The notes under the pieces were generated by a model. It was given only the letters and a program-made list of their open reading frames with translations, was not told the DNA's origin and did not search any database. A stretch of DNA of 64,000 bases, taken from Thuidium tamariscinum (Eukaryota > Streptophyta > Bryopsida > Hypnales > Thuidiaceae). Location of the stretch: positions 25,341,489 to 25,405,488 of the forward strand of contig OX344756.2 of the NCBI GenBank assembly GCA_947034885.2. The letters are read 5' to 3'. A program made the translations under genes and the position numbers. Numbering within the stretch: position 1 is the stretch's first letter; every line of letters starts with the position of its first letter. Positions 6,980 through 44,074 of this stretch are shown here, piece after piece.

Positions 6980-7007
6980 TTATGCCATATTTAACTACTT
7001 TTGGACT
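6980..7007 (+). repeat. Left TIR of the giant element
   Basis: 28 nt from TTATGCC to TTGGACT, exactly matching the reverse complement of 44047-44074. Two further outer bases (AA) also match. Confidence 0.92.
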
Positions 7008-7019
7008 ATGGAAAGTCCA

Positions 7020-7445
7020 GAAGTAATTTATGGAAAATCTCCGGATGCATGGGGCTCCCAATGTACTAAAGTTATGATGTAATGTTCATCTGGAAATCCC
7101 CCGATGTACTAAAGTTATGATGTAGTGTTCATCTGGAAATCCCCCGATGTAGTAATGTAATGTTCATCTACAAACTCCCCTGGCTATGTACTAATTATGT
7201 AATGTTCATCTGGAAATCCCCCAATATAGTAATGTAATGTTCATCCACAAACTCCCCTATGTACTAATGTAATGTTCATCTGGAAAACCCCTAATGTAGT
7301 ATGTATTAATGTTATGCTTATCTGGAAATCCCCCGATGTAGTAAAGTAATGTTCATCTGGAAATTCCCCTGTACTAATGTAATGTTCATCTGGAAATCTC
7401 CTGATGTACTACTCTAATGATCAGTTGGAAAACCCCAATGTTAAG
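7020..7445. repeat. Left subterminal repeat array of the giant element
   Basis: Eight to ten imperfect units of about 35-55 bp built around GTAATGTTCATCTGGAAAT followed by CCCCCGATGTA. The CCCGATG part resembles half of the element's 18-bp palindrome. Arrays next to the ends are typical transposase-binding regions in large DNA transposons. Confidence 0.8.
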
Positions 7446-7969
7446 ATGTCGTAATGAATACAAGAACTTCATACCACTGATTTCCTATACAGTTTTACAT
7501 ATCACTCACACATGGAAATTTTTAATGTAAGTATGGCTCATTTGGAACTCCCCTGATGAAGTGCTCACATCCAAAAGCAAGCACTGAAATTCAAATGGAC
7601 AATGGGTTCTCATATGCCATAGACAATGCAACTTCTGTTTATTTCGCGCTATGTAAGCACTTATTGCTTGCATAGGATAAACAATTATTAACAATGCCTT
7701 ATTCCATCTTTGAAGTGTTGTAGGGAATACATTACTTGACAGTTTATAGGAAGCAGAAGCCTACAGTACATTATATTATAATAATAGAATCATATAAGTT
7801 CTGGCGGTTGCCATTAAGGAATAGAACAAACATCATATACTACTCTGAATTTCATCTAGAATTGTCACAATCGGCAACTACCTACAATTAAAAAGATCAG
7901 ATAGTCATATGGGGCAATGTGCAATGAAAATGCATAATGGCAATTCAATGTTGCATACACAATGCCAAC
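7446..7969. other. No gene; 3' flank of the DUF7869-like gene
   Basis: Non-coding DNA between the subterminal array and the end of the minus-strand gene. A variant palindrome, ending GGAGATCTCCCGATG, lies at 7969-7985 just downstream of the stop codon. Confidence 0.5.
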
Positions 7970-8013
7970 CGGAGATCTCCCGATGACTGGTATGAGTCTA
8001 CCCTGGTTAGCAA

Positions 8014-9948
8014 TCAAGGATCCACCTCATTTGCCCTATTCAGATTTGCCAAGGCAGCCTCTCTACTCTTCTTAGGAATAGTTCGAGATTTGGGGTCTAC
8101 TACCTTGGACCAATTTGCATATACTACGCAATTTACATCAACCCAAGTGGGGACTGTATTTTCAACAACCCATTTACCACTCCAGCAATTCCGGTACCTC
8201 AATTCCAATGTCCTTTCGGAATTATCCTGTCTCCAGTACTGCAGCAAGAATTTCCCGTTATTCATATCTTCTGGCACTCTACATACGTCGGACAGTGCTC
8301 TTCCTTGCCAAACAGCACAAACGGAGGGATCTTCGGGTCTAAGAAGAACCCATGAGCTTGGACGTATGTCCACCCAAGGATTGAAACTTTCCTGTGGAGC
8401 TTCATTTGCAGGCCCACAGTAAGGTTCCGGTTGATCTACCTCTGGAATCACATCCATGGGATTCACGCTTGACCTTGGTCGAGATACATCATCCCGCAAC
8501 ACCCTCCAATCATGTTGTGGCCAGAAGCCTTCAACTAGAACTGGAAGGCAATCCGGCAGCGGATTGTTTAGCTCACGTACAACTCGATTCCAGTAATCGA
8601 CATATGGACCAAACGCGGTTGCAAATCCCTGACATTTTGACATTCCATTTTACCAGTACTGGATGTACTTTTGGAGCCCGACCAACATAAATCCTTTGTT
8701 CAGTGTAGCCTTCCGTGCAACTTCAAGAACCTTTTCTTGGTTTCTTGTCTCCTTAGAAACTTCATTGCCCCACATAGGCTTGAATGGCACCGGCTTTGGA
8801 CAACCTCGAGGGAGCATTGCTTGACCACGCCGGTCTTTCTTCCACAAGCACTGAGCAGGTTTATCAGATGGTAGCCACTGCAAATCAACTGCTGACTTTT
8901 TATATTTCATGACGGGGATTCCATCACCATCCACATAGAATCTAAAAAGATGCATCTCTCCCAATCCAATAATTCTAGCTGTGCCACTACACAAGTAACC
9001 TTTCACAAAGGATTTAAAATCCGCCACCTCCTGTATGACCTCTGGCATGAATGACAATTCCTGAGATTCCATGAAGGCTTTCATGAGGTCAGCAACGACA
9101 AACGTATTCTTACTCTTCAAAGCCTTGGACAAATGGCTAAAATATGCATCTATGTCCTTGTGAGTGTGTCCAACTAGAAGGAAACCCGCTTGAATTTCCT
9201 TGAATACCCCTCTTGCTGTAAGCAAAGACAAGAATGCCATGAGATATTGGTTCTTGTTATCCTTGGCAGAGTTATCAAGCTGAAGATATAATTTTTCTGG
9301 AAGGGGGATAGATCCACGCCAAGCTGCTGGATCTATCATTTTTAGGGTGTCCATACACCTAGATTTTCCTCTGAGGAGTGCCTCAAACATTGAATTCGCC
9401 GGCGGATAAGGAAAGAGGTTGTCTGTCTCCTGAATTGGAGGACCCTCCAAACGGCGAAACAATCTGGCCAAGGATGAGATTGTAAAGTTCGAGTCCCCCG
9501 GCCAACATGATGGAGCGTAATGAGCGTAAGCACCATCTCCATGACCATGAGCTACCATACCAGTTACACTCAACGGAAGCTGACCTAAACCTTGAGTGGC
9601 CTTAGTTGTCACCCGCATCCTTGGAAGAGCCGTTTTAGATGTATCCATCTTATCATGAATAACCCATAACATCTCCTGAGGGTTCCGTTTCGATTCTTCA
9701 CGCCAAGACCCATACAAGCGACGACAAGACGCTTGATGATTAAGATGTTCAATTCGCTGCTTCGTGAACTCCACAAACTTGAGGCTTCCTTTTGGTGATT
9801 TCAAAAGAAACGCCAGTAACTGATCACAAGTAGTACATTTCGCAAACGAACTGCCAACAAGTTTAACCGCGACATTGTTGAAGTGCTCCCTTTTTAATCT
9901 ACTAATGGTTGACTGGCTCACTTGAGGAAGATCGTAATCCGCATTTAA
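8014..9948 (-). pseudogene. DUF7869-like transposase gene, exon 2, with an internal stop
   Basis: The exon starts after an AATGCAG acceptor and runs about 645 codons to a TGA. The core shows an RNase H-like layout as in DUF7869 proteins: VIHDKMDTSKT, then LQLDNSAKDNKNQY, then GFLLVGHTHKDIDAYFSHL. The acidic residues and the GHTHKDID box are the likely catalytic set. One in-frame TAA (8650-8652) falls between IQYW and NGMSKCQG, and the frame is otherwise open with clearly protein-like sequence on both sides. A Gln codon there would restore it. The C-terminal 210 residues after the stop have no domain I recognise. Placement in the giant element suggests the transposase, but that role is an inference. 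Confidence 0.75.
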
Positions 9949-10033
9949 CTGCATTGGAATAAAAACACACTTCAAAATCAAAAGCAACAACAGAAGCTAC
10001 TGGATAAGAATGATTCTATTCCAAATCAAATTT

Positions 10034-10079
10034 ATCGGGAGATCTCCCGATGTGACAATATATCCGGAGATCTCCGGAT
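10034..10079. promoter_or_regulatory. Pair of 18-bp palindromes in the DUF7869-like gene intron
   Basis: ATCGGGAGATCTCCCGAT at 10034-10051 and ATCCGGAGATCTCCGGAT at 10062-10079. Both are perfect palindromes around GATC, 10 bp apart. They represent the two main variants seen elsewhere in the element, with CCCGAT or CCGGAT arms. The role is unknown: transposase, ParB-like protein or methyltransferase site are all possible. Confidence 0.85.
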
Positions 10080-10141
10080 GATATAATCCATTCGAAAGGA
10101 AGCTAACTGACTCAGAATAAAGGTTCAAGTCATTGAACTAC

Positions 10142-11452
10142 CTCATTGGCGTCAGCTTGAACTCGCTTCCAATTATTTCCAGCAGGTAGAAATTTCAAAG
10201 TGTCCATTCTTCCGTTTCCAATGCCCCGCATTTGGTGTGGCATTTGATCCGCAGTTTCATCAATGATTGCTTTTATAGTTCCTGTCACCTGGACGGTTCG
10301 AATTCTCGGACGCTTAACCCCTTTGTTCCCGTGCGTTCCCGAGAGCACGCCATCATTGTAAGCATCTATGTAATTGTGGTAGGTCGACTTTGGAATTCCG
10401 TGAATAACGTACCACGCAGTACCACAAACTTCAACTCCCTCCAAAGTAACATACTTCCGCTTCCGATTCCCGTTGGCACTATGCAGCTGTCCGCCCACAG
10501 CGATCCCGTATTCCCGATGGTCTTCAAATGACTTCAGGTAAAATTTCTTCCTCACCTTCAACGTACTCTCGTGATGAAACATTTGGCAACATCGATTGGC
10601 GCAGCATTTTTCTGAACTAACCTTTCGAATTTCATCCTCTCCAGTTTTGCGAACATACTGTGAATCCGGTTGATCAAGCTTGGGTCGACAAACGATGAAG
10701 CGATAGGGCGACTTCTTGCGACCACCTAGATAAGCTAAGGGGTCCTGAACTTCCGGATGGGCCCGAAAGTGGTCAACAGTCTCCATCAACGATTGTCCAT
10801 TTGGGAACCAAGAATGCAGTAAGGGCCACCGAGCATGACTCATTATAGTATCCTTGTTACCAACGAAAACGTCGAGTACAGTAACACCTACAAAGCCTTC
10901 ACCGAGTATTCCATCTCGGAAATGATCATCCGCCCTAAAGCAGTTTATTCGACCTGATGCTAGGAGCATGCCATCCGAATCTTTGCGATGCACCTCAAGA
11001 CCCATCCAATCCTCTAGACGAATATATTGATCATCATCCATCGGGGGATCTCCCGATGGGCTCATTACAGCATCAGCTCTCCATAACATTGTCCGACCAA
11101 GAACATCAGCTAAAGTTCTAAAACCCCTTTGGCAAGGGTCAACTCGCAGTTTCTGAGCTTCTAGATTGATCGTCTGAGGCTGTAGTAGAACAAATACGCA
11201 GGGCTCCATGGGTATTTGAACTCCAAGCCACTCACCTTCAGGACGGGCATCCACAATTGATCCTTCCCCAACCTCACCGTATCCCAGAACAAGCAACTTC
11301 ACTACATCACCGCTCTTGACTGGTGAAGATGTAGCACTAGACTCTTCAGAGTCCTTCTCCGTGAGGTTTTCACCTGAGTAAGAGAATGATACATCGTCGA
11401 GGGATTCATAGGATAAATCCATATTGAATGTCTCATTGTCGTCGTAAGCCAT
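10142..11452 (-). CDS. DUF7869-like transposase gene, exon 1 (N-terminal region)
   Basis: 437 codons from ATG at 11452 to a GAG|GTAGTT donor, phase 0, joining exon 2 across an intron of 193 bp. The N-terminus is acidic (DDNETFNMDLSYESLDD). A cysteine cluster EKCCANRCCQMFHHES near residue 280 and the segment VCGTAWYVIHGIPKSTYHNY near residue 350 match the usual N-terminal part of DUF7869-type proteins, probably a zinc and helix-turn-helix DNA-binding region. The 18-bp palindrome occurs inside this exon in variant form at 11040-11058 and is translated as SGDPPM. No stops or frameshifts were seen. The intron holds two palindromes, at 10034-10051 and 10062-10079. Confidence 0.72.
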
Positions 11453-11801: not shown

Positions 11802-12080
11802 ATCCAGAGATCTCCCGATGCAACCATTCAGACACATAATTGTGAAAGTATCGGGACAGTTCGCGATACAAAAAAAGTACGAGCATTCAACACTTCGAGA
11901 TAAGTTGGATGCAATCCATGCAAGTGGATCGGACACAATCCTTTGGTGACCTCAAGATGCAGCCATTCAGAGGTGTTACCACTCAACCATTGGAAGATAT
12001 CTCCATGCATTCCCTGCGAGAGTAATCTCCGGATGGAAATGCTCTCAGAGTTGATGACTCGTGTATCGGGAGATCTCCGG
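11802..12080. promoter_or_regulatory. Palindrome cluster upstream of the DUF7869-like gene
   Basis: Copies at 11802-11819 (ATCCAGAGATCTCCCGAT) and 12063-12080 (ATCGGGAGATCTCCGGAT), with a half site near 12027. They lie 350-630 bp upstream of the ATG at 11452, where a promoter would be expected. Confidence 0.75.
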
Positions 12081-14869
12081 ATGGAGCCAATACGTTCACA
12101 CGTGTTCACGTATGATACTTCATCTCCGTATGCTATACCTATATGTGTATTATTCTGACATACTTCTGTATGGGAACGAGATACTCAATAATTGGTAATA
12201 TGGGTTCCCATACTGTATGTACTAGTAAGCAAAAGGTAGTCAATCGACCGTAATAAGGACAACCATACTACCATCTTCTACAATAACCTAAAAATGCCTC
12301 GAATTCCTTGGTACTGTTCTCCAAATACATGCCGGTAATTGACTAAGAATTTGATAGTTATCTATAGTTGTAATCTTTGTGCCATGCACATGGCATACTG
12401 ATTAAGCCACGAGAGGAATACATGCAAACTTGGAAACGAGAGGCAAGGTAGATGCTCATGGTGCGTAACACTGCTCAATAAACAGCTAGTGCTCATGCAT
12501 TCATCAAGGGACACGAATGCACTATTCAACATAAGTCATGAGACAAACAACTACTGAAGCATTGCATTGCCGTCCTCATATCCTACTCGTTCTTATTGTT
12601 CATTGATATGCAACATCTCCAACTGCATTCAGAAGAACTCAAGATTATGAACCCTCATGCCATGAAAGTTGAAGAAATCATACCTTGTAATACTGAATTC
12701 ACAAGAGAGCTTCGTGTGACCCCATGTCCAAGTGCTTGACACGCTGCACTGCACGAGCTCCAAACTCTTGAGCTTCAACGAGCATGTTCACGACTTCGCA
12801 TGTGCAAAAGAGCCAGCTCTAGCGAGCTGGGGGCCATGACCCCAGTCTGTTCGGATTCGAGATCCGTGCTTCCCGCCACAAATTTCTATAAGAGATAGGA
12901 ATCTTGCACGTTCAAAATTGTTGACTGCCGTCCTCAAGTTTCCACTGCATTGACCAAAAAGAGGATCCCTCCGCATGTGGTCTCCTGATCCAAATGTTGA
13001 CCGCATTCTTGGAGTTGGTGCAACACTACTATCGAGGAGCATCTCCAAATGTGCACCCTTGACGATAATTGCTCACTGCATTCACGTTCACATTAATCTA
13101 ACGCTAAGTCTCAAAGTCACATAATAATGCTTGTGATTCTGTGATCTATTCTAACTATTGACTTTAGTCTCGAAATTCGTGCATCTTGAAGACCTTGGAG
13201 AATTTGCACTCGGCCTTCCAATTGGAATCTTTGGTAGATTCATTAGATCTGCAGCATTGAAGTAGGGGTCGGTTGTGGCATTTTCTCTATCAAATAAAGG
13301 GCCACATTTAGCACTTCAATGTCTTTTAACTCCATCAATATTAACCGTTGGTTATGTTTTGTTTCATTATCTTATAATTAGGCTGATCTATATCATAAGT
13401 GGTAATTAAAGGAAAACACATTTCATTTTGAAGCAATATTTTCAACATGGAATAACTACATGTAGTTCAGTGAATCTCTTTATCAACACTGCGGAATTTT
13501 CCATCTACATTTAATTATAGAGAAAACAAATGCAAAAGATTCATGATGACATTCCAGTGATAATGATTAAATGGAAATTAATTAAGAATCTTGGATTCAC
13601 CATGTCAAGGTGTAGATTATGTAGGAAACAAAGACTTCCCGTGCTGAAACTTCGTTTAGAAGGACGACGATGTATGCCGTAGGATTTATAGCAATTAGAG
13701 TTCAGGAATTTGGCTTGCAATCTTTGGAAAATTCAGCCAATTAAACAATTTTAATTACAGTTAATTGACCGCGCATTCCTTTACGGTCCTTCATTTCTAG
13801 GAGCACTCTAGGATGCTTCAAGGCTTTAGGGTATAGGGTCCACAGTTATAGGGTCCTAGGATTAAGGGTCCTAAGGTTTAGGGTCCACGGTTATAAGGCC
13901 TTTGGCTTCTGGGTATAGGATATTGGGGTTTAGGATCATGGTCTTAGATTATAGGATCCATAGTCTTAGGGTTTAGGGTTTAGGGTTCAAGGCTTACAGT
14001 CTAGTATTTCAGATTATTCACTCTAAGGGTTAGGGTTGACGATTAAATAGACATAGGCATACAGTTTCATGCTCTAGGATCTATGCTCTTATATTCATAG
14101 TGTTGATGTTCCAGAAATAATGTACTAGCTTCAATTTTAAATGTAAAATTTATAAAGTAGGGTTCTGGAATGGTTTAGAGTATGAACTTCAGTGAATTAG
14201 AAATTTTGTATTTCGGGGGTTTTGAGATTTCGATATTTGAAACTAGGGTGCCTATTTAATATACATTGAGTATTAGGGTTTGGATTGTGTAGATATTATT
14301 GTCTAACTTGAGAGTTAAGGTGTTTTGGTTTTAGACTCTAGAGTGCTCTTAGGGTTCAATTTTTTTATAAATTTATGGCATGAAGGATTTAGGATTTGAA
14401 CAATATCATTATTCAATTTGTGTTTAATGTTATGAGCTCAGTTTTTTGGTATTTTGAAATGTCTTTGGATTTCGTACCGTCCCGCTCTTAGTTTCATTTG
14501 ATAAGAATGAAAATGATATTAATTATATTAAATGGAGTAAGTATACTTCCTATAATTATTTACAAAATATATTTTAGCATTTTTGGAAAAATAAATGATT
14601 GCAAAGTAGTTTCAATGAATCTTAGTTGAATAGTTACATGTAATTTGGTGAAAATCATTAGACTACATATTATTCCTCTCATTCATCTAGAGTATCGGGA
14701 AATATTAACCCTTTTGATTGAATTAATTTTCTACATTCTCTTAAGTGATTATTAAAAACAAACGTTCACATGTTTATATAATTATTTACAATATATAGAT
14801 AAGTATTCTTATCCTAAATGCAAGCCTGACATCATAAATTATAAGCTTGTTATGTTGAAAAATTATAGA
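12081..14869. other. No gene recognised; includes telomere-like repeats
   Basis: I see no convincing gene. A minus-strand frame at 12788-13048 has no recognisable motif. CCACGAGAGGAATAC at about 12407 recurs at about 42477, supporting common origin within the giant element. From 13820 to 14040 the sequence is a patchwork of GGGTCC and TTTAGGG words. Confidence 0.5.
13964..13992. repeat. Interstitial telomere-type repeat (TTTAGGG)n
   Basis: Three consecutive TTTAGGG-type units with degenerate copies on both sides (13830-14030). TTTAGGG is the usual telomere repeat of plants. Confidence 0.7.
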
Positions 14870-16440
14870 GAAGCTGGAATGCCATTAGACGTTCATATTC
14901 TATGACAAGTTTCCACTTCAAAGTCAAAATTGTCTATTTCTTTTGTCATTCAAAAAAAAAGGGCACCTTGCCATTGTTTGCGCAAATTGCCAAATCTCAC
15001 ATACAACTCTAAACCAACACGATTTAGGGACAAAAAAAATGGGGACAAGTTGGAATGCCATTAGACCTTCATATTCTATGACAAATTTCAACTTCAAAGT
15101 CAAAATTGTCTATTTCATTTGTGGTTCACAAAAAAGGGCACCCTGCCATTGTTTGCGCAAATTGCCAAATCTCACATACAACTCTAAACCAACACGATTT
15201 AGGGACAAAAAAAATGGGGACAAGTTGGAATGCCATTAGACCTTCATATTCTATGACAAATTTCAACTTCAAAGTCAAAATTGTCTATTTCATTTGTGGT
15301 TCACAAAAAAGGGCACCCTGCCATTGTTTGCGCAAATTGCCAAATCTCACATACAACTCTAAACCAACACAATTTAGGGACAAAAAAAATGGGGACAAGT
15401 TGGAATGCCATTAGACTTTCATATTCTATGACAAATTTCAACTTCAAAGTCAAAATTGTCTATTTCATTTGTGGTTCACAAAAAAGGGCACCCTGCCATT
15501 GTTTGCGCAAATTGCCAAATCTCACATACAACTCTAAATCAACACGATTTAGGGACAAAAAAAATGGGGACAAGTTGGAATGCCATTAGACCTTCATATT
15601 CTATGACAAATTTCCACTTCAAAGTCAAAATTGTCTATTTCTTTTATGATTGAAAAAAAAAGGGCACCTTGCCATTGTTTGTGCAAATTGCCAAATCTCA
15701 CATACAACTCTAAATCAACACGATTTAGGGACAAAAAAAATGGGGACAAGTTGGAATGCCATTAGACGTTCATATTCTATGACAAGTTTCTACTTCAAAG
15801 TCAAAATTGTCTATTTCTTTTATGATTGAAAAAAAAGGGCACCCTACCATTGTTTGCACAAATTGCCAAATGCCACATACAACTCTAAATCAACACGATT
15901 TAGGGACAAAAAAAATGGGGACAAGTTGGAATGCCATTAGACGTTCATATTCTATGACAAATTTCCACTTCAAAGTCAAAATTGTCTATTTCTTTTATGA
16001 TTCCAAAAAAAAGGGCACCTTGCCATTGTTTGCGCAAATTGCCAAATCTCACATACAACTCTAAACCAACACGATTTAGGGACAAAAAGAATGGGGACAA
16101 GTTGGAATGCCATTAGACGTTCATATTCTATGACAAATTTCAACTTCAAAGTCAAAATTGTCTATTTCTTTTATGATTCAAAAAAAAAGGGCACCCTGCC
16201 ATTGTTTGTGCAAATTGCCAAATCTCACATACAACTCTAAATCAACACGATTTAGGGACAAAAAAAATGGGGACAAGTTGGAATGCCATTAGACGTTCAT
16301 ATTCTATGACAAATTTCAACTTCAAAGTCAAAATTGTCTATTTCTTTTATGATTCAAAAAAAAAGGGCACCCTGCCATTGTTTGCGCAAATTGCCAAATC
16401 TCACATACAACTCTAAATCAACACGATTTAGAGACAAAAA
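14870..16440. repeat. 175-bp tandem repeat (satellite-like), about nine units
   Basis: Units recur every 175-176 bp. Shared landmarks are GAATGCCATTAGA, CAACTTCAAAGTCAAAATTG, GGGCACC(C/T)TGCCATTG and CACGATTTAGGGACAAAAA. The units at about 15050-15580 are nearly identical, while outer units differ by a few bases. Short open frames in the array repeat with the same period and are not genes. Confidence 0.92.
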
Positions 16441-16960
16441 TAATTTTAAAAAGTTGTATTGCCATAGAATGTTCATGTCCTTTGAAGAATTTCAACTTCC
16501 AAGTTCTAAATGTTAATGTTTTGTTTGATTCCCCAAGAAATAGTACTTAGAGCTTCTTTCCATTAATTCCAAAATGCCACAACAAATTGGAAATCAACAG
16601 AATTTATAGACAAAAGGAATTTCTAGAAGTTGCAATGTCATTATAGGACATGTATGTTGTATGATGCATTTCAAGTTCAAAGTTGAATTCGTCAATTATT
16701 TAATTGATTCTAAAAAGAAGGGTACCTTGCTATTTTTGCAAGAATTTCCAAATGCCACCGTCACGCAATTGGAACTTAATGTACGAAAGGGAATTTTTTT
16801 TTGTGTAAGTTGAAATGGCATTGGACACTCATGTCCTATGACAAATTCCAACTTGTCACTTGAAATTACCTTTTTTTTATGTGATTCCCTCCCAAACGGT
16901 ACCCTGCTATTATTTGCACCGATTGCCAAATGCTTCACAAATTTAAAAATAATTAAGGTT
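16441..16960. repeat. Diverged edge units of the 175-bp repeat
   Basis: About three strongly diverged units keep the order of landmarks (CATTGGACACTCATGTCCTATGAC, then TTCCAACTT, then GGTACCCTGC, then TTGCCAAATGC). Decay towards the array edge is the usual satellite pattern. Confidence 0.7.
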
Positions 16961-29100: not shown

Positions 29101-29103
29101 GTG

Positions 29104-29641: not shown

Positions 29642-29834
29642 GTGATTTTCTAAATTTTTTGTCGCTGGTCTTGCTGATTCTCGACACCTGAAGTTCGGAA
29701 GCTAAGATCTGACTATGAGTTTGGTTGAATTTTCTTCTGTCTTGTGAGCTTGCCTTCATGACAAGAACTTGATGTACCTACTTTCAGCATGATTGATGTT
29801 CGGATTTCAATCTCTCAGAGTGAATACTGAGTCC

Positions 29835-30422: not shown

Positions 30423-30537
30423 AAAAAATTTCAATTTTCAGCCGTTGGATCTGAAGATCCTGGGGTCTTGGAGATTGTGGCCTGGTGACCGTCGGATCCA
30501 ACGGATCTTTAGATCCAACGGCTGTAAATTTTTTTTA
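30423..30537. repeat. Inverted-repeat miniature element
   Basis: CAGCCGTTGGATCTGAAGATCC and its inverse (one mismatch in 22) stand at the two ends of about 115 bp, with A/T runs extending the pairing. CAGCCGTTGGATC ends are common in plant miniature elements. No TSD was resolved in the A/T runs. Confidence 0.65.
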
Positions 30538-31788: not shown

Positions 31789-31976
31789 GTGCACTTGGAT
31801 TTCTTATATGTGTATGCATATATTGTATTTAAACCTTTCGAAATATTATTTATTACTATATCTCATTGAACTTGTGGATTTAGTGAATAGAGGTATGTGT
31901 TTTGTCTTGAATTGATTTAGATTTTTACTTCATATATTTCTGTTTCTAGACCTTCATTTCATTTTTCATTTTGCAG

Positions 31977-32653: not shown

Positions 32654-32766
32654 GTATGCAATTTCTTTACCTCTTATTTCTATGTTTTGAATTCATAATT
32701 TCTTAGAAATGTCAAAATTTGGATTCTTTGTGTACCCAATTTTGAAAGATGTGTTTTGTATAACAG

Positions 32767-32959
32767 ATCTACAGAAGATTCACATGTGAAGACCAATCTG
32801 GTACACCAGATATATCAAGTCCAGAAGTATGGTTTGTTACCTATTGAGCGGTTCAATGAGATGTTGAGGCCTTCCGAGTTAAAGCGGTGTGGGTTACCGA
32901 AAACAAAGAAGACGTGGTATTCTATGCCACAAAAAGTCTTCACATCCTTTGTTTTCCGG
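32767..32959 (+). CDS. MULE cargo gene, exon d
   Basis: 64 codons between TATAACAG and CGG|GTAAGA. The helical segment NLVHQIYQVQKYGLLPIERF is placed like the helices after the ParB core. Phase fits both neighbours. Confidence 0.68.
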
Positions 32960-33066
32960 GTAAGAAAATTTCTGTTCTATTTCTTTGTTTTTATTATTGC
33001 CTTATGTTTTCAGATGGTTTTTTTTCTATACTGATTTCAAGTCATTTGTGAACCTCAATTTTCCAG

Positions 33067-33261
33067 CAAGACATTTCTCAAGCCGCTGACGCAGCTGCTC
33101 GCAAGTACACTGAGGTCACACCCGAAGATAAGAAGACTGCACTAGGTCTTGCAGAGGCAATGAGAGTAGGGGCAAAAGAAAGGACTAGGAAGTTGAATGT
33201 CAAGATGTCCAAATTGCTAGCAGTGGCAAATCCAGCTAATACGCCTGGATTCATGGAAGAA
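33067..33261 (+). CDS. MULE cargo gene, exon e
   Basis: 65 codons, QDISQAADAAARKYTEVTPE to GFMEE, between TTTCCAG and GAA|GTAAGT. Basic and helical. No domain named. Confidence 0.7.
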
Positions 33262-33348
33262 GTAAGTGATTTATGTATTTCAAAGTGTATTGAACAATCT
33301 CACTTGAAAATTCATTACATATCTAATTTTCTATTTCTTCTGGTGTAG

Positions 33349-33564
33349 GTGGAGAAGCACTGGGTTTCAAATGAGATTCCAGAGATGACCTTGGAAAAGT
33401 TGCAGATGATTGCAACCTGCAATACTACTCCAGCTCACAAAATCAAGATTTTGAAGTGGTGGAATTCTTCCATCCCTTCACGTGAAACAAAGCGTTTTCC
33501 ACCGAAACCAGTATCTGAATTATTGCTTGGTCCATTTCTGAATCGCTGTGTATAGTATGCTGGG
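33349..33564 (+). pseudogene. MULE cargo gene, exon f (possible in-frame stop)
   Basis: Reads VEKHWVSNEIPEMTLEKLQM to LLLGPFLNRCV, then TAG (33553-33555) and three codons to a GGG|GTAAGC donor. A weaker upstream donor (TGT|GTATAG) in the same phase would avoid the stop, so the stop is uncertain. Confidence 0.62.
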
Positions 33565-33703
33565 GTAAGCATTCCTTATCATCACATTGTGAGTTCTATA
33601 ATTTTCTATTTATACATTTCATTTATAAGAATGATTGTGTTTTGAAATTGAGACTCGATTGTCACCTTTAAATGGATTTTTATTTGTTGAATGGTTATTT
33701 CAG

Positions 33704-33939
33704 ATTGAGGATGCAGCACTGGAATACTTTGAGGCGGTTGTAAGACAGGACAACATTTCTATCAACATGAACCTTCCCTCAAAGCCACAGACGTTATTGG
33801 ATTATCTGGAAGGATGGAGAACGAAGATTTGGGATCAAGGTTTCTTGGCGCAGTTGAGAGGAGCGAACTACTTCAAGAAAAGCGACAACTTTCATACTTT
33901 CGAGGGGGCCAATCATGTTGTGTGAAGGGTTCTTTTTCG
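33704..33939 (+). pseudogene. MULE cargo gene, exon g (possible in-frame stop)
   Basis: Reads IEDAALEYFEAVVRQDNISI to FHTFEGANHVV, then TGA (33923-33925), then a strong TCG|GTGAGT donor in phase 2. A weaker GTGAAG donor just upstream of the TGA keeps phase and avoids it. Contains LDYLEGWRTKIWDQGFLAQL. Confidence 0.62.
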
Positions 33940-34073
33940 GTGAGTTTTGCAGTATAATTTTTTGTCTTTAAGAATTCATATTGCAAAACTGACTTATGTT
34001 ACTAGTTTTTGGATGACTTGAATAAATTTCTGGATGACTTGGAAATTTTTTTTTTATGAAAGTTCAAAATGTT

Positions 34074-34145
34074 GGGGGTCCCCGGAATACCTCTTAGACA
34101 TATGTCGGATCCGACGGATGTCCAAGAGGTACCTTCGGGACCCCC
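34074..34145. repeat. 72-bp foldback, TCGGATCCGA centre (copy C)
   Basis: GGGGGTCCCCGGAATACCTC and its inverse flank TCGGATCCGA (34105-34114). It lies in an intron of the cargo gene. Same termini and centre as the foldbacks at 24462 and 29835. Confidence 0.82.
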
Positions 34146-34308
34146 TACTTTTCTTCACTTGAACTGTATTGATTACTTTTTCAATGAAATATTAAAATTT
34201 TTTGGGGGTTTCGTGGACATTGACAACTCCCTTTGTCCATGTATATTATAGATTTAAAAATTTTTGTCCTCTAAATTCTCTTCCAAACCTTGTGTTTGCT
34301 CATGGCAG

Positions 34309-35032
34309 ATATTTCAAGTATGAGCTAGAAGCAAAAGGCGCAATTCAGAAAGCAGACCTTCCTCCATTTCTGTTTGGATTTCTTGACCGCAATTCGGTGG
34401 ATTGCATGTTTACAGCGAATCAAATTCGCACATTTACCACGGCTCATCTAAGTGGTGGAGGATGGTACCTTGACTGCCCTATTGCGTATACACATCCGTC
34501 TGAGGTGGAGCTGCGGAACTCACTGGAGGGAATTGGTGCTGTCACTATGGAGGTTGATGAATTTGTTGGCCTCACTGCAAAGCAGAAGCAAAAGGCGATT
34601 GCAAAGAGGGACACAAATGACAGAAGGAAAGCTGCTCGCATTCAGTTGGCATTGGAGAACAAAGAAAAGAAAGAAGCTGAGCGTCTTGCTAAGTTAGAAG
34701 AGAAGGAGAAGGAGAAGGAGAAAGAGAAGGACGATAAGGATAAGGCAAAAGGGAAGAAAATTATAGATGGCAGTGGCGCTCCAGCCTCATCAACATTGGA
34801 TGAAGGCTCTCAAATGCAAGGTGCTTCTCAGGGCGGGATGAAGAGGAAGGCTGTACTTCTAGACTTCACGGAAGAGGTAATCACTCAAGGGACACAAGTG
34901 ATCGCCCTTGGAGATGATGACGATGTCAACTCCGAGGAATTACTGTTGAATGTCTCGATTGGTGAAGTAGTAGACAACGAAGAGGTTCGGGGACCGAATT
35001 GTTACACTGAAGTCTTGGACTTCTTGTGGAAG
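34309..35032 (+). CDS. MULE cargo gene, exon h (lysine-rich coiled coil)
   Basis: 241 codons, YFKYELEAKGAIQKADLPPF onward, between CATGGCAG and AAG|GTAAAT. HLSGGGWYLDCPIAYTHPSE is a compact folded segment. Then a charged helix (QKQKAIAKRDTNDRRKAARI and a run of EKEKEK) and an acidic tail (ALGDDDDVNSEE) form a linker between the ParB-like and methyltransferase-like halves. The last part (NEEVRGPNCYTEVLDFLWK) leads into the methyltransferase-like domain. No stop. Confidence 0.72.
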
Positions 35033-35141
35033 GTAAATTTTTACAATCATTTTATTGTGCATTTCAATTGGAGAAATGAATGAGTATTTGTTTGTACTTG
35101 TATTCATAAAGTCCTCACATATTGAAGAAATGCACTTGCAG

Positions 35142-35492
35142 ATGGTGGTAGGGAAAGCGCGGGTTTATGATGGAGTGGTCAATCGGCATCCGGGATTTGA
35201 TCTCATGATATTTGACTGCCAGGAGAACTTGCCGGTGCCAGACATAGGGGGCTCCAAGCACATTCCTTATTGGAACGCAGATAAGGAATACTTTACCATC
35301 TACCAAGCTCTTGCGTTTGCACAGAAACATTTGCAGGACAACGGCTGCATTGTTGTGTTCCATTCTTGGGGCCAAGACTCCTTGGAAACCATTGCAGGAC
35401 TTCTTCAGGAGTACCCAAACATCAAGAAGAAGAAGGATTAGATGGGCATGAATCAGATGCATCTTACATCGGCAATTCACCCAGAGCAAACG
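35142..35492 (+). pseudogene. MULE cargo gene, exon i, methyltransferase motif IV region, in-frame stop
   Basis: 117 codons. GFDLMIFDCQENLPVPDIG occupies the place of motif IV (normally DPPY or similar) of amino-DNA methyltransferases, but reads DCQE. It is followed by YFTIYQALAFAQKHLQDNGC and IVVFHSWGQDSLETIAGLLQ, the helix and strand expected after motif IV. TAG (35439-35441) follows PNIKKKKD. The frame then continues MGMNQMHLTSAIHPEQT to an ACG|GTAATA donor in correct phase. No alternative donor avoids this stop. Confidence 0.7.
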
Positions 35493-35587
35493 GTAATACT
35501 TCATCATTTGTTTCAAATGGTTTTTTGAATTGAATTTGTTATATTGATTGTTACTTGTTCTCATGTGGGCTCTGTTTGTGTTTGTAG

Positions 35588-35867
35588 ACATTGAAATTTG
35601 GCATCACTCTCTTAGTGAAACATCTAGGAGACAAAGGGAAATCAAATTTTGAATTCAGGCGCTCTCAGACCATGCTGAAGGCGAAGGTTGACCTTCGCCG
35701 CGATGACCTGCTCATGAATTACACTACGGAGGACTCCATGTTGATGAATGACATGGATCGAATGCCATGGCATGGAGCTCGAGAGAAGGACGCCCGATTC
35801 ATGCAGTTCATCATCGAAGGAACCACTGATGAAGGAGATATAGTACTTGATTGCACTGCATCTACAG
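35588..35867 (+). CDS. MULE cargo gene, exon j, methyltransferase motif I region
   Basis: 93 codons. Contains KFGITLLVKHLGDKGKSNFE and, at the end, GDIVLDCTASTG, which matches motif I of beta-class methyltransferases (strand, then D-x-x-x-G-S/T-G) with DCTASTG in place of DPFxGSG. In beta-class enzymes motif I lies after motif IV, as here. Donor ACAG|GTGAGT cuts the motif. Confidence 0.75.
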
Positions 35868-35957
35868 GTGAGTTTTGATTTCTTGAATGTCTTTAAACCT
35901 TCTCCATTTTATGCAGTCAACAATTACACAAATCATTCACTTTTTGGTTTGTGACAG

Positions 35958-36174
35958 GTGCATCTATTACTGTGCGTCGAGTAACAGGGCGGCATATTGT
36001 TGCGTTGGAAGAAGACAAGAGGATTTTCCAGCACATTCTTTTGCCAATGAAGAAGGTTGATGCACCAATAACCACGGCTCCAAGTTCGGATGCGACAACT
36101 GTGGTTTTATCGCAAGACCAAGATGCTGTTGTAATTGTCCCTCGCAAATTCATTCGGCGCCCTAAAGCTAGTAA
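35958..36174 (+). CDS. MULE cargo gene, exon k
   Basis: Continues motif I with ASITVRRVTGRHIVALEEDK, where GRHIVALEED fits motif II (the acidic residue that holds the ribose of S-adenosylmethionine). Ends PRKFIRRPKASN at an AGTAA|GTAAGT donor. Confidence 0.74.
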
Positions 36175-36259
36175 GTAAGTTTTTCGATTTAAGGCTTTTT
36201 AGTTTTCATTGTACTTGGAATGTTTCTTGGATTTAACAATGCATTTGGTGCATGTGTAG

Positions 36260-36521
36260 CAATGATGGAGTGATCGTGGAGGACGAAGTGAAGAAGAGAC
36301 GAAGACTCATCTTGAGCCCTGAGAAGCCATTCGACCTTCCAATCTATGCAGAGCAACTAGCATCAGCGTTTGCGGAGTTTGGTACTTCTAAGCCCAAACA
36401 ACGCAAACCTTCTTACGCTCTAAATGTCTTAGAATTCATAGATGGATCAGCATCTGAGGGTAGAGAGACTTCAGAGTCTTCTAGTGATAGAGATTCTGCG
36501 ACAGAGTCTACTGCAAATTAG
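36260..36521 (+). CDS. MULE cargo gene, last exon
   Basis: 86 codons ending in TAG. Starts with a basic stretch (DEVKKRRRLILSPEKPFDLP) that could be a nuclear localisation signal. The tail is rich in serine and glutamate. Confidence 0.7.
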
Positions 36522-37054
36522 ACTTATAAGATTGACATATCTTATGAGTTAGCTTGGTATGTTTGGATTTTCCGTATGATTGGATTTGAGTGCTTTATGG
36601 CTATATATTGTTTGTTTTTATGGCTATATGTTTTTTTCTCTTACATCTACATGTGGTTTGTTTTTATGGCTAAATATTATTTGCTTTATTCCACCTTCAA
36701 TCTTGGTTTTCAACACCATAACTTGAACTACATAACATGAATTACACTTTTGATCCTACAAAAAGAATATAATTACTGTAGTTGTTCTTTACAAGTGTAC
36801 TTAACCCCAAACGAATTATTAAAAGAAAAAAATGGAATCACAGTGTAAGTTAAAAAAATTGATTGTCAAAACGAAATTCACCTTCAACAAAGTATGCCTC
36901 TATGCCTATTACGGGTTTGGGGTCGGAACCTTGAAGCCTTTCACATAGAAATTTGCATCCCCAAAACTTTATGGAATCCTGTATTAATGAGATTGAATCA
37001 TGTAGAAATCATTACAAGGCCTTACCCTAAGTGTGTTTCTCGAAGTGAAGTGCA
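36522..37054. other. No gene; 3' flank of the MULE cargo gene
   Basis: AT-rich, with three TTTTTATGGCTA words at 36600-36680. No coding signal. Confidence 0.5.
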
Positions 37055-37700
37055 ATAAATACTGACGTCTAAATAGGTCTCCATAGATAAAATTAGGGAG
37101 TGCAATATATAGTGACCTACAAATAGTTCTTCATGATAAAGAAAATGAAGTGGAAAAAGTAGTCACCTCTCAATACTAGTATATAAGTAAAATGGGAAGT
37201 GGAATGAATAGTGACCTCCAACTACGTCTCTATGAAAAAGAGTGGGAAGAGGAATAAATTGTCAACTCCAAATATGTCTACATGAAATAAATGGGAAGTA
37301 GAATAAATAGTCACCTCTAATTGGGTCTCCTTAAAAAAAATGGGAAGTGGAATAAATAGTCAACTCTAATTAGGTCCCTATAAAAAAAATGGAAAGTAGA
37401 ATAAATAGTCACCTCTAATTAGGTCTTCATAAAAAAAATGGGAAGTGGAACTCTAAACCCTAAACCCCCAAATAAGATTACATGAAATAGGAAGGGAAGT
37501 AGAATAGATTGTAACCTCCTAATACGTGTCCATGAAACAAAAAAGGGAAGTGGAATAGGTAGTGACCTCCACATGAAAAAAATGGGAAGTACAATAAATA
37601 GTCACCTCTTAATAGTTGTACATGAATAAAAATGGGGAAGTGGAATGAATAGTCACCTCCAATTAGGTCTACATGGAAAAAAATAGGAAGTAGAATATAC
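37055..37700. repeat. Tandem repeat, about 55-60-bp units
   Basis: About eleven imperfect units of the form AATGGGAAGTGGAATAAAT, AGTCACCTC, TAATTAGGTCTCCAT and an A-run. It lies near the right end of the MULE and could act as a subterminal array. Confidence 0.8.
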
Positions 37701-37989
37701 ACGTTATCTTTCTTGAAATACTATATTACTATCTATTTCCAAAATATTGAATGTGAGGAAATTAATACCACCTGCAACCAAAGGCGTTATGAATTTCATG
37801 TTGCACAATGAACTTTTCATGCAATCAAAATTTGTAATTACTAATTCTTACCTAGAATTCTAGGTTTTACAGTCACCCTAAAGCCTGAACCAAAAATAAC
37901 CACTCCAAAAACAGTATACAATATTTACACCCACGGTCATAGGTACATCCACGGTTATAGGTTTTTTGCCTCTTTTTTAACAAAAAAAA

Positions 37990-38040
37990 GTTCCTGCTCA
38001 CAGGCTCACAAGCTCACAGGCTCACACGCTAGCAACCCTG
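37990..38040 (-). repeat. Right TIR of the MULE
   Basis: GAGCCTGTGAGC occurs twice when read inverted, next to GCTAGCGTGTGAG. It pairs with 21956-22010 and is followed by the TSD copy at 38041-38051. Confidence 0.75.
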
Positions 38041-38226
38041 GTAAGTGCTACCACTCATGGCAGTGACGATCTTGTGTACCTATCCCGGTCACTGAACCAA
38101 AACATAGCTGGTCAACAGAGGGAGCAATGTTTCACACAGCAACTTCTGAACGCTCGAGTGAAATGGAGGGATATGAATAGTCCACAACCAGTTTTGAATG
38201 GGAGAGTTCACTCGGCTGAGTATGCG
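38041..38226 (+). CDS. Large ParB/methyltransferase/FCP1-like gene, exon 2, 3' part
   Basis: The first 11 bp are the TSD copy. Beyond it the exon continues the frame broken at 21955: THGSDDLVYLSRSLNQNIAG, then REQCFTQQLLNARVKWRDMN, ending SAEYA(V) at a GCG|GTAAGG donor. These helices follow the ParB-like core, as NLVHQIYQVQ does in the MULE cargo gene. Confidence 0.72.
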
Positions 38227-38252: not shown

Positions 38253-38560
38253 GAATGGATTTTCACTTGTACATTAATTGTGGGGGGCTCTTAGCATCGG
38301 GAGATCTCCCGATAGTTGTTGCTGCCTGGAAAGGATTTTCACTTGTACATTAGTTGTGGGGGGCTCTTACCATCAAGAGATCTCCCGATAGTTGCTGCTG
38401 CTTGGAAAGGATTTTCACTTGTACATTAGTTGTGGGGGGCTCTTACCATCAAGAGATCTCCCGATAGTTGCTGCTGCTTGGAAAGGATTTTCACTTGTAC
38501 ATTAGTTGTGGGGGGCTATTAGCATCGGGAGATCTCTCAATAGTTGTTGCTGCGTGGAAA
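38253..38560. repeat. 76-bp tandem repeat, four units, each with one palindrome
   Basis: Four units with an exact 76-bp period (GGATTTTCACTTGTACATTA at 38257, 38333, 38409 and 38485). Each holds one copy of the 18-bp palindrome, at 38296, 38372, 38448 and 38524. The two middle units share the variant ATCAAGAGATCTCCCGAT, so they are the most recent duplication. It lies in an intron between exons 2 and 3. Confidence 0.9.
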
Positions 38561-39992: not shown

Positions 39993-40010
39993 ATCGGGAG
40001 ATCTCCGGAT
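39993..40010. promoter_or_regulatory. 18-bp palindrome in intron 3
   Basis: ATCGGGAGATCTCCGGAT, the mixed-arm variant. A related variant, ATTGGGAGATATCCGGAT, is at 40354-40371 in the next intron. Confidence 0.8.
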
Positions 40011-40327: not shown

Positions 40328-40438
40328 GTTTGTCTTCATTTTCTATTACTCATCTATTGGGAGATATCCGGATGCTAGCTTTTCTTTTCTCATGTTTCCT
40401 GATGTGGCTGACTGTCTATATTCTTGCGCGCATGGCAG

Positions 40439-41384
40439 GAGAAGTCTCCAGAGCCGCCGCTTCGTCCAAAGAAGTTGAAGAATCCAAAGCGACCCAACCC
40501 AGACTCAGCCCCCAAGAAGGCAAAGCGACTCACAAAAAAGAGAAGTGTGAAGTCGTTGATAAGTGGCTCAACTTTTGGAGGGGATGGTGCGCTATCTAAT
40601 ACTATAGGTGAGCAGTCTACGGCCCTCGAAGCAGAGAACCCTGGAGTCGTGGATGCTGCGACAATCTTGGTTTCATGTTCCAGAGGAGGAGTTCCTTCAG
40701 TGCCTTCTGCTAGCCAAGCTCTTGAGGATAACCAGTCAGAGAAGGGAGATTCCTCTGTTGAAGCCGTCGGACAGATTGAACATGAATCCTTGAATAAAGG
40801 GACAAATGATGTACATGTTGGCTGCTGTGGCGTTGCATCGGGAGATCTCCCGATGAACGATGTAGAAGTGGTCCTCACTAGCAATCTATCGGGAGATCTC
40901 CGGATGGCAGAGGACATAGAACTCAACTCCGCTCCCACGATGGCTGAGGAGATTCGGAATGATGCAATGACCGATTTGCCCCCCCTGAGTCCGGAAGTGG
41001 CCGTGACAGTAGTGGTGGAGGAGGATGTCACAATCACCAACCCTGGAGTCCCTGTGGTGTTCTCAGATAATCTACCCGTGAAGCTCGGGAAGGGGGTAAC
41101 CGTGGTTGTCATGGGAAAAGAGGAGGTGTGTAAATTAAGGGACGGGTTTCAAGACGTGTGTCTTCTTCCAAGTATGAGTTTAGATTCTCGCGGCAGCGAT
41201 AGGAGATCTCGGTACATTGAAGCTTGTCGACTGGCAGTTCGTTCTACTTACCAAACGATTTATGACATTGTCCGTGTACAGGACACTGTATCTGCACAGG
41301 AGCCTGAAGGTTCGGATGCTGCACGTTTGCCTCAGGTAGGCGGCGTCGGTCAAGGAGTGGTGGCCCAAGAGGTTACCGATACAG
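40439..41384 (+). CDS. Large ParB/methyltransferase/FCP1-like gene, exon 5 (linker)
   Basis: 315 codons between GCATGGCAG and ACAG|GTACTT. Opens with a lysine-rich run (PLRPKKLKNPKRPNPDSAPK, then KKAKRLTKKRS), a likely nuclear signal. The rest is mostly low-complexity and acidic. Two 18-bp palindromes are translated in frame as SGDLPM and SGDLRM. No domain recognised. The open frame on the opposite strand is a shadow. Confidence 0.7.
40837..40905. promoter_or_regulatory. Two 18-bp palindromes inside exon 5
   Basis: Perfect ATCGGGAGATCTCCCGAT at 40837-40854 and mixed-arm ATCGGGAGATCTCCGGAT at 40888-40905, 33 bp apart. Confidence 0.85.
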
Positions 41385-41492
41385 GTACTTCAGTTGGCAT
41401 GAATGTTTTTAATGGGATGGGTCTTCTCTCTTTGTGTAGCTAGCAGTTCTTTAGGGTGTCACTAACTATATCATGATTCTTTTTTTTGGCAG

Positions 41493-42148
41493 ATGTGAGA
41501 GGGGATGGGGCGACGAAGGGTACGCTGTCTATAGAGGTATCCCCCCGACGGTATACAGTGATCCTGGACATGAACGGAGTTCTCGTACACAGGTTTTTTT
41601 ACAAGAAAAAACACCACATAAAAAGAAGACCCGGTGTCACAGTTTTCCTTGAATGGTTGTATGCCAGGGCAAATGTAGTCTTCTGGAGCAGTGTTACAAA
41701 CCGTACCATGACGGGTTTGTTAAGAACCGTGCTAGCAGATACTTCTTTTGGGGAGGATGACGTCCATGTCCTCTCACAGGTTGATTGCGCGGAATCCTCG
41801 TATAGGACCAAAGAGCAGCCTGAGAAACCAACCTTTTTAAAAGAACTGAACACCTACACGCAGACTGCTGGTTTGTCATCTACAGAGAACGTACTTCTGA
41901 TTGATGACAGTCCCATGAAAAACCTTCTTAATGATTCTAATAACGCCATCTTTCCACAGACTTGGAAAGGTGATTCAAAGGACAATTTCTTGACTGGGCA
42001 TCTACTTCCGTGGCTTGACCATTTATTCAAATCAAACGAAGCTGTGGTTCATTTTGTGAGGAACAATCCATTGGATGGCTGTCAGAGTCCTATAGATGCG
42101 GTTTCGAGGGAGGGACATGAGATTCTGAAGGTAGTGGTTGGACTGTAG
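41493..42148 (+). CDS. Large ParB/methyltransferase/FCP1-like gene, exon 6, FCP1/NIF-like HAD domain
   Basis: About 218 codons to a TAG. RRYTVILDMNGVLVHRFFY is the FCP1-type phosphatase signature, in the plant-like form LDxNGxL instead of DxDxT. RPGVTVFLEWLYARANVVFW and SSVTNRTM form motif II. ENVLLIDDSPMKNL is motif III, with the paired aspartates. The order and spacing fit FCP1/NIF-domain HAD phosphatases. The second catalytic aspartate of motif I is replaced by asparagine, as in several plant homologues, so activity is uncertain. No stop or frameshift. Confidence 0.8.
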
Positions 42149-42868
42149 TTTCTTCAAAGGGTGGCTTCATCCGAAGATCTCCGGATACCTAGTTATGCTT
42201 ATTCATGTGATGTACTGGTGCACAGTTGTAGATGTACAGTACTTTCTGCGGCCTTAGTTTAGTGGAATTTTGGAACCTGGTGGAACTTGTATATAGACAG
42301 GTGTTTGACATTCCATTGCATCTGTATTTTTAACTTGTATGTAATTAAAATGAGAATTTACACGAGTATTACTGTACTCTTAAATTGAAGTGGGACATCC
42401 AAGTCTTTTTCTTCCTCTGTTATGATTCATCTGGAGATCTCCCGCTATTAGTTGCTTGCGTTTGCGTTATTTATACCACGAGAGGAATACGGTCAGAACA
42501 TTATTGATTACGTTGAACTTTTATTGGTAATCAGTGATGCCTTTGTAGACATACACTAATTTATGACTTTAATGGTTCATAGGCAATTGCAGATAGTGAA
42601 TAATATCTGCATTTTCCCCGACCCTACAACCGGTCTCCTAGGTCCCTTGGTACGATTTAATGTCCTAGAAATGAATTCCAAGTTTACTATCTTGAACAGG
42701 AACCTATGCGTCACATGTGTCTAAGTATGACTTCCTCCATGTACATCTTATATACTCCATTGTCTTGTACACTTCTTAGTCACGATTGTCTTAAGCTCAT
42801 ATGTCACACATGTTTATCGGGAGTTCTCCGGATGACTGGAGGTCTTCCTCTGCATGTAGAATTGACTA
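42149..42868. other. No gene; 3' flank with palindrome variants
   Basis: Palindrome variants at 42169-42186 (ATCCGAAGATCTCCGGAT), 42429-42446 and about 42814-42831. No other feature. Confidence 0.55.
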
Positions 42869-43246
42869 GTGAATGGGTCTTGGCAGAAGGCGCTGCTTGT
42901 TGTATTGACTGGTGCGCTGTGCGTTGAAGGTAGTGTTGCGGATCTCCCTCAAGATATCAACATATTGGATGGTTTTAACGAATTTTTTCAATATCTTGTT
43001 GAAAGTTCTCACTGTGGCTTGTGGTCATGCATGCGTGCTTCAACTTTGTCGGAACTTGTTCGACGTATTTTACAACAAAATATTATAGACCGATTCCTTT
43101 TCATATCCAGTGTCGAAACTCCTGACAAGAACGACCCCTATCCGAATCGTGTAGCAATGGTGGAGTATGTTTTAGGTAGTCCTCCATTGCGTAGGGTTCT
43201 TTGGAATCAAACTATTGCATTGCTTGAGGTAGACCCTCTGAACTAG
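42869..43246 (+). CDS. Small hypothetical ORF in the giant element
   Basis: 125 codons, or an exon starting after TCTTGGCAG at about 42887. Protein-like sequence: ILDGFNEFFQYLVESSHCGL, then STLSELVRRILQQNIIDRFL and VAMVEYVLGSPPLRRVLWNQ. Not recognised. The amino-acid composition looks coding, but it has no strong start or homologue known to me. Confidence 0.35.
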   Translation: MNGSWQKALLVVLTGALCVEGSVADLPQDINILDGFNEFFQYLVESSHCGLWSCMRASTLSELVRRILQQNIIDRFLFISSVETPDKNDPYPNRVAMVEYVLGSPPLRRVLWNQTIALLEVDPLN

Positions 43247-43539
43247 CAACGTCCACGCGTTATAGGACCGTGGATACATGTAGGAGATGATGTAGATCTT
43301 ATCAAATTGCAATGTCCCTACTATATGGGACCAGAATTGAATATAAGGGGAGTAAAATACCATCAAGTGCATTAGTTTGGTTATTATATAGGCACCTGTT
43401 TGTGATTTCTGGTATGAAAATTAATAAAATATGTTGAGTCTTTGTTCTCCTTCGAACTGTAAGTAATTCTGGTGTACCAAATGTTTGGATTCCGCTTAGC
43501 CTTGTCATTCACTACATTTTCTTGTATTGTTATGGGAAT

Positions 43540-44012
43540 TGCATCCGGAGATCTCTCGACCTCTCTTTTCAAATGCCAATCCACTGAACCCTGAAGTAAA
43601 GCTACTTATGTGAGTTGAAGTAATCCCTAGTTCATTGCCTTGGTACAATCCAATTGGGACAAGAGAATTGTTTAGATTTATGTGAGTTGCAATTAGGTTT
43701 AGTCTTTGGTTTCTCGCAACACTAGGACCCTCCATTATGTGTTGTTCCCTTACATCGGAAAATCTCCCGATGATTTACCTCAAGTATTACATATAACCTG
43801 ATGAAGTTCGGTGTACTTCCCTAATTACTTGAACTCCAAGAACCTCCATACTGTGATATTCCCTTAGATCGAGAAATCTCCCGATGATTCATCTCAAGTA
43901 TTACATATAACTTAGTGAAATTGGATGTATTCCAACTCCCCAAATCCCCTAAACCCGACTTCTACTGAAAAATATAAAATCCTAAAACCCTACTTATATT
44001 GAAAATCTCCCG
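43540..44012. repeat. Right subterminal repeats of the giant element
   Basis: Palindrome variants at about 43542, 43754, 43867 and 43998. Two of them stand in near-identical 45-50-bp blocks that continue CTCAAGTATTACATATAAC (43751-43800 and 43865-43915). Functional counterpart of the left array but with different flanking words. Confidence 0.75.
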
Positions 44013-44046
44013 ATAGTACCATGACAAAGTCCAAATTTAACACCAA

Positions 44047-44074
44047 AGTCCAAAAGTAGTTAAATATGGCATAA
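44047..44074 (-). repeat. Right TIR of the giant element
   Basis: Exact inverse of 6980-7007, AGTCCAAAAGTAGTTAAATA through GGCATAA. Confidence 0.92.

Follow-up and report, generated by a model that had tools for sequence, protein, structure and literature searches.

The window analysed here is a 64,000-nucleotide stretch of the moss Thuidium tamariscinum (contig OX344756.2, positions 25,341,489 to 25,405,488) and contains a giant DNA transposon at window positions 6982–44072, along which an 18 bp palindrome, ATCGGGAGATCTCCCGAT, is repeated. The palindrome is specific to one transposon family, is conserved in two related contrasts between copies of the element, is exchanged for a different palindrome in a sister family, and varies independently in its two arms at positions 4 and 15. 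We propose that it is a family-specific operator which an element-encoded protein, most likely the product of the gene designated P, binds as a dyad, and that the likeliest effect of binding is anti-silencing of the kind attributed to the VANC proteins of Arabidopsis VANDAL transposons; we give this proposal slightly less than an even chance. Protein binding, already suggested in a preliminary description of this DNA, is the likely role of the sites, and we infer that the binder is a dimer, that it is P, and that it acts against silencing.

Matched against ATCGGGAGATCTCCCGAT, the window yields four exact sites, 13 with at most one mismatch, 24 with at most two, 31 with at most three and 34 with at most four. 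In 30 dinucleotide shuffles of the window per threshold the mean number of sites was 0.03 (maximum 1) at two mismatches, 0 (maximum 0) at three and 0.13 (maximum 1) at four. The preliminary description had counted about 25–30 copies; the palindrome is real, but at up to three mismatches the number is slightly higher. Its confinement to 6980–44074 holds, as all sites fall between 7088 and 43885, inside the element, and there are none in either flank or in the nested Mutator-like element (MULE; scanned at 21959–38039). Word counting that presupposes no motif ranks pieces of the palindrome highest within the element, but not in the DNA outside. With exon limits set by eye, the introns, 1,958 bp in total, contain 15 of the 31 sites; a further 11 fall in the 3' regions and the two ends (2,961 bp), two between P and the transposase-like gene T (8.1 kb) and three in coding sequence (7.9 kb). 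The core GAGATCTC, there described as constant, is intact in only 21 of the 31 sites, and the array at the left end carries ATCTGGAAATCCCCCGAT-like variants.

The specificity of this palindrome (motif 1) extends to the genome, which was searched over 363 Mb in 19 contigs, with the window on contig C8. The exact palindrome occurs 73 times and its reversed control not at all; a degenerate word, ATCNGGAGATCTCCNGAT, is found at 255 places, against one for its reversed control. Of 50 listed places among the 73, every one either has a T or P match of family 1 no more than 15 kb away (49) or is part of a miniature inverted-repeat transposable element (MITE; one), and among 50 listed of the 255 the corresponding numbers are 47 and two, the one unassigned place being C2:43308487; the two sets of listed places overlap, and none of the places listed is near the sister family. 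The sites therefore mark other copies of the element, a point for which the preliminary description had proposed a genome-wide count.

Paired terminal inverted repeats (TIRs) point to ten or more long copies, and conservation of the sites was followed in four of these, namely the window copy, E4 (C3:47188032–47210024, 22.0 kb), E5 (on C2, 39.5 kb) and E10 (on C1, 42.3 kb), which hold 31, 46, 39 and 35 sites respectively at up to three mismatches, with arrays that expand and contract between copies. Between the window copy and E5, noncoding sites are 0.925 identical, compared with 0.779 for other noncoding DNA and 0.873 for coding DNA; for E10 the values are 0.935, 0.790 and 0.880. The alignments cover 22 (E5) and 26 (E10) of the 31 window sites; where a covered site is noncoding, its identity exceeds that of its flanking DNA in 19 of 19 cases for E5 and in 22 of 23 for E10, the direct flanks in these diverged copies being 71–72% identical against about 93% for the sites. 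In 2000 draws of random noncoding windows for each of the two copies, none reached the identity of the sites. The seven sites of P intron 1 (20003–20746; starts at 20003, 20076, 20177, 20407, 20496, 20586 and 20729) are collinear between copies with their spacing nearly kept, and the intron as a whole is about 68–69% identical over 82–84% of its length. E10 lacks one coding site of the window copy.

The sister family provides the second line of evidence. T has 97 matches in the genome, including a sister group 53–61% identical, and motif 1 is present in 15 of 15 family-1 loci and, at up to four mismatches, in none of 15 sister loci. Word counting in one sister copy gave instead motif 2, TATCGGCTG-N-CAGCCGATA, written as T[AG]TCGGCTG[GC]CAGCCGA[TC]A. 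It has 20 sites at up to four mismatches in the 10.5 kb sister copy L026+L066, is present in all 15 sister loci at 6–7 sites each, and is absent from four family-1 elements and from the window. In the genome ATCGGCTGNCAGCCGAT, a word for motif 2, has 131 sites and its control none; among 50 of these listed, 47 have a sister T or P no more than 15 kb away (two of them also being near a T of a third group), three are unassigned and none is near family 1. The two motifs have the outer arms ATCGG...CCGAT in common, and differ in core (GAGATCTC versus CTGNCAG) and in spacing (8 versus 7). Both families also carry two of their own palindromes between the T exons.

Gene P accompanies the families in which a palindrome is known. 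Of 36 sister T places, 33 have a P match at a distance of at most 15 kb (28 of them at most 10 kb), and in the sister examples examined P is directed away from T, as in family 1. The third T group comprises 39 relatives, 39–42% identical (for example C6:25389180–25390367), in many of which the open frame is about 950 aa long, and only two of these 39 places have a P match within 15 kb and none within 10 kb; in the two exceptions the P pieces score as the first or the sister kind. Its near lack of P would make this third group a natural control.

The arms of the palindrome also speak for a site read as DNA. Over 166 sites from the four copies, the least constrained positions are 4 (0.36 bits) and 15 (0.72 bits). 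Each varies without regard to the other, as 61 of 166 sites form a Watson–Crick pair there against 68.8 expected. Free and uncoupled arm positions may be the trace of a protein dimer reading DNA, rather than of an RNA hairpin.

The two genes of the element point away from each other. T (8018–11448, minus strand) has two exons, 10130–11448 and 8018–9955, with limits set by eye from the frames and GT..AG, and matches DUF7869 (Pfam PF25273, E 6.2e-44); its conserved motifs IHDKMD, LQLDNSxKDNKN and GHTH-DID look like a DDD/E active site. P (19587–42149, plus strand) is a putative single gene of about six exons, the first of 18 residues, as read by eye from the frames of E4 and the window. In the window copy T carries an in-frame stop that E4 lacks, and P is disrupted by the MULE as well as by a frameshift and a stop; with both of its genes broken, this copy is a relic. 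The second exon of P holds the block YYIIGGQHTVEA (YIIGGQHTV), which is kept in sister P and for which the label ParB-like, given in the preliminary description, has a weak PHROG match (E 0.057) and no ParB family match in Pfam, NCBIfam or PDB. The last exon encodes a NIF/FCP1-type phosphatase domain (PF03031, E 4e-16, at 41477–42145), an odd component for a transposon gene. The first motif of such phosphatases is usually DxD; in P it reads DMNGV, and because DMN stands in place of DxD phosphatase activity seems doubtful. For the other P segments scanned, Pfam, NCBIfam and PDB returned nothing of weight. PDB sequence searches as a whole gave either no match or weak ones (two in one search, at E 0.99 and 1.6, and one in another, at E 0.24). 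Scans of viral contigs for T, the ParB-like block and P exon 3 revealed no relative, nor did a phage collection scanned with a piece of sister P.

Between the window copy and E5 the T exons are 89–92% identical, P exons 2 and 3 86–87% and P exon 5 75%. Between families the identity is 25% for P exon 3 and 37–39% for the ParB-like part of P, compared with 55–56% for T exon 2 and 47% for the C-terminal part of T exon 1. Thus P is the faster-evolving gene, as a protein with a changing target would be, with the N-terminus of T as a further candidate binder.

In the mechanism we propose, a dimer of P would bind the palindromes of its own family and occupy many of them over the introns, promoters and ends of that family's copies; it would open or demethylate the bound copies, counteracting silencing across the element, and expression of T and P would thereby be maintained. 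The sister family would be left alone by P because it uses the other palindrome. The Pfam name NIF denotes a phosphatase domain of the RNA polymerase II C-terminal domain (CTD) type, which has a role in transcription, and its presence would suit a transcriptional role for P.

Several observations weigh against this proposal. Between the window copy and E4 there is no signal (0.965 for sites and 0.961 otherwise, with 732 of 2000 draws reaching the observed value), these copies being too close to discriminate; because E5 and E10 are related to each other, the comparisons with them do not count as independent; the alignments may be anchored by the motifs themselves, although the sites of P intron 1 are collinear in order and spacing; and the 166 sites of the position weight matrix were picked by likeness to the consensus. 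In the sister family, noncoding sites are 0.959 conserved over 15 loci against 0.932 for other noncoding DNA, and 0.939 against 0.868 between L030 and L026, but this is weak evidence for selection because the family's one coding site is less conserved than other coding columns (0.871 versus 0.942) and coding DNA between L030 and L026 is lower still (0.792). The MITEs of family 1, which lack P, nevertheless retain one site, which may therefore have a function in transposition, and in them conservation is lower at the site (0.898) than over the remainder (0.955). Apart from the weak ParB-like match, no DNA-binding domain is recognised in P, and a structure prediction for its exon 3 from one sequence reached a predicted local distance difference test (pLDDT) score of 32.9 and was not used. 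Finally, T could be the binder because its N-terminal part has also diverged between families (34% over 268 aligned residues, very gappy).

This last point belongs to the most serious alternative, which we consider possible but on balance unlikely: that the palindromes are binding sites for the transposase T, acting as subterminal or internal enhancers of transposition or in autoregulation as in Spm TnpA. Together with the divergence of the T N-terminus, arrays of sites at both ends (four at the left, several at the right) and the single palindrome that each of nine MITEs keeps about 50 bp from one end, on one side only, are consistent with it. The nine MITEs, however, look like descendants of one founder and so amount to one case, and L039, a putative end with a perfect TIR, has no site at up to four mismatches in the 1.5 kb inside it. 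The retention of seven sites in an intron far from the ends also speaks against T binding. In the MITEs the site has decayed more than the remaining sequence, as may happen in dead copies, and this is weak evidence that transposition does not require the site in every round. The intron sites, the MITE decay and the switch of word between families fit an element-specific regulator somewhat better than transposase binding.

It is improbable that the palindromes are targets of an element-encoded DNA modification, of the GATC adenine or otherwise, that marks self DNA. The centre of the palindrome is GATC, the end of P exon 3 resembles a methyltransferase loop by eye with its GG loop kept in sister P, and passages of PMC5512222 describe ParB–methylase fusions in bacteria. 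Motif 2, however, lacks GATC, and methylation of GATC as a theme common to both families, which the preliminary description had raised, is not supported for this reason; its methyltransferase-like label for an element protein fares no better, as no methyltransferase family is named in the P segments scanned with the Pfam, NCBIfam and PHROG libraries and the NPP-like motif of exon 3 is not kept in sister P. Slightly less probable still is a role like that of parS, with the sites as a centre for partition by, or spreading of, a ParB-like protein, a role also suggested at the outset that gained no further support. Sites of the parS type are dyads, as the palindrome is, and the exon 2 block with its weak PHROG match is conserved in both families; on the other hand, Pfam, NCBIfam and PDB return no ParB for P, the element is chromosomal, and the sites are spread across all of it. 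We think it very improbable that the palindromes are functionless, spread passively by tandem duplication and recombination, for although several stand in tandem arrays and their number varies between copies, dispersed sites are intact while their flanks diverge. An RNA-level element, such as a hairpin or an intron splicing signal, is the least probable reading, as about half of the sites are intronic but others lie in ends, between genes and in exons, and arm positions 4 and 15 are uncoupled.

The element itself is about 37.1 kb long with the nested MULE and about 21 kb without it, and like its palindromes, target site duplications (TSDs) and MULE is given here as unstranded. A 26 bp TIR, ATGCCATATTTAACTACTTTTGGACT, lies at 6982–7007 on the plus strand and its complement at 44047–44072 on the minus strand, flanked by the TSD copies AATT at 6978–6981 and 44073–44076, the right one read from the sequence. 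Matches to the TIR at up to three mismatches number 78 and 85 on the two genome strands (control 0). Three of the four long copies have a 4 bp TSD, perfect in E4 (CCCG) and E10 (AATA), the flanking 4 bp of E5 not matching, as have eight of the nine MITEs (241–249 bp), also perfectly. Two further element copies, C9:22760034–22784145 and C9:22807091–22831202, lie in mirror orientation 23 kb apart with equal T and P scores; this arrangement may be an inverted duplication of large size or may stem from the assembly.

From left to right, the palindromes begin with variants in the left-end tandem array (7088–7405; sites at 7088, 7131, 7320 and 7388, and at 7208 with four mismatches), followed by one immediately downstream of T (7967–7984), two in the T intron (10034–10079; 10034 and 10062), one within the coding sequence of T exon 1 (11040–11057) and those upstream of T (11802–12082; 11802 and 12065), a region in which E4 has an array of 14 copies of a 48 bp unit. 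Beyond P intron 1, four sites stand in 76 bp tandem units in P intron 2 (38296–38541; 38296, 38372, 38448 and 38524), one each in intron 3 (39993–40010) and intron 4 (40356–40373), two in frame in P exon 5 (40837–40905; 40837 and 40888, read as SGDLPM and SGDLRM), and the last six downstream of P and in the right end (42169–43885; 42169, 42429, 42816, 43543, 43754 and 43868).

The MULE (21956–38040, in P exon 2) has the limits previously given for it, with the 11 bp repeat GTAAGTGCTAC at 21945–21955 and 38041–38051. A related MULE, about 81–85% identical, is present in the P gene of E5; because the two are opposed in orientation and about 600 bp apart, they are probably separate insertions. 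Between the divergent T and P lies a 176 bp tandem array of 9.3 copies (14871–16504), with related arrays in E4, E5 and E10. Immediately left of the element, at about 6543–6757, an inverted repeat seen by eye is foldback- or MITE-like. Two related gag-like open reading frames, 46636–48609 and 60254–61027, have the common start MASSSNPK..., the first without a Pfam match at E up to 1.

In the open PubMed Central (PMC) literature we found no paper containing DUF7869 and, by title or abstract, nothing relevant on giant transposons of this type, but several known systems invite comparison. The TnpA protein of Spm is associated with repeated short sites near the ends and promoter of its element. 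TnpA of Spm/CACTA is also named for demethylation in a passage of PMC10398659. The likeness lies in a transposon-encoded protein, repeated short sites and a link to demethylation; the sites here differ in being palindromic and in running through the introns of a 21 kb element, and T was compared by Pfam only. The Sola superfamily, according to passages of PMC10741241, has a 4 bp TSD and a DDD-type transposase, is reported in Physcomitrella and has some members above 15 kb; the TSD length is the same here in most MITEs and long copies, and a DDD-type transposase is suspected here too, while T is set beside Sola by description alone, Pfam giving DUF7869 only. With the ParB–methylase fusions of bacteria and phages, as passages of PMC5512222 present them, P would share a ParB-like block and, by eye, a similar order in exon 3, and it differs in having no significant ParB or methylase family match and no viral or phage relative in our scans.

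In passages of PMC5735166 and PMC10398659, the targets of VANC are a short motif dense in the noncoding regions and introns of one transposon family, standing in tandem repeats that vary between copies, with different motifs in related families; the VANC21 motifs there are 9 bp long, arrayed in one orientation and not described as palindromes. Set beside those passages, the moss motif is likewise enriched in the noncoding DNA of one transposon family only, stands in tandem repeats that differ between copies, though many sites are single, and gives way to a different motif in a related family, and here too a second transposon protein diverges along with the motif. The differences are that the motif here is an 18 or 19 bp palindrome, that motif-like arrays also adjoin the TIRs, and that VANC proteins bear DUF1985/DUF287, whereas T has DUF7869 and P a NIF phosphatase domain, with no Pfam match to DUF1985 or DUF287, at E limits of 1–10, in exons 2–6 of the family-1 P or in the frames of sister P. 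Judged by sequence, membership of VANDAL/VANC fails, and the likeness would be one of convergence, if at all. It is possible, and we put it forward as a tentative suggestion that we expect may well prove wrong, that DUF7869 transposons have a second, independently evolved and sequence-specific anti-silencing system, in which a partner with a ParB-like block and a CTD-type phosphatase domain reads a palindromic address whose core has been rewritten between sister families while the outer arms were kept. If true, eukaryotic transposons acquired family-private operators with co-evolving element proteins on more than one occasion, and the idea that such privacy allows transposons to spread while doing the host little harm becomes a testable general rule, for which the two sister families, with common outer arms, different core and spacing and two exchangeable P proteins, are a natural specificity swap.

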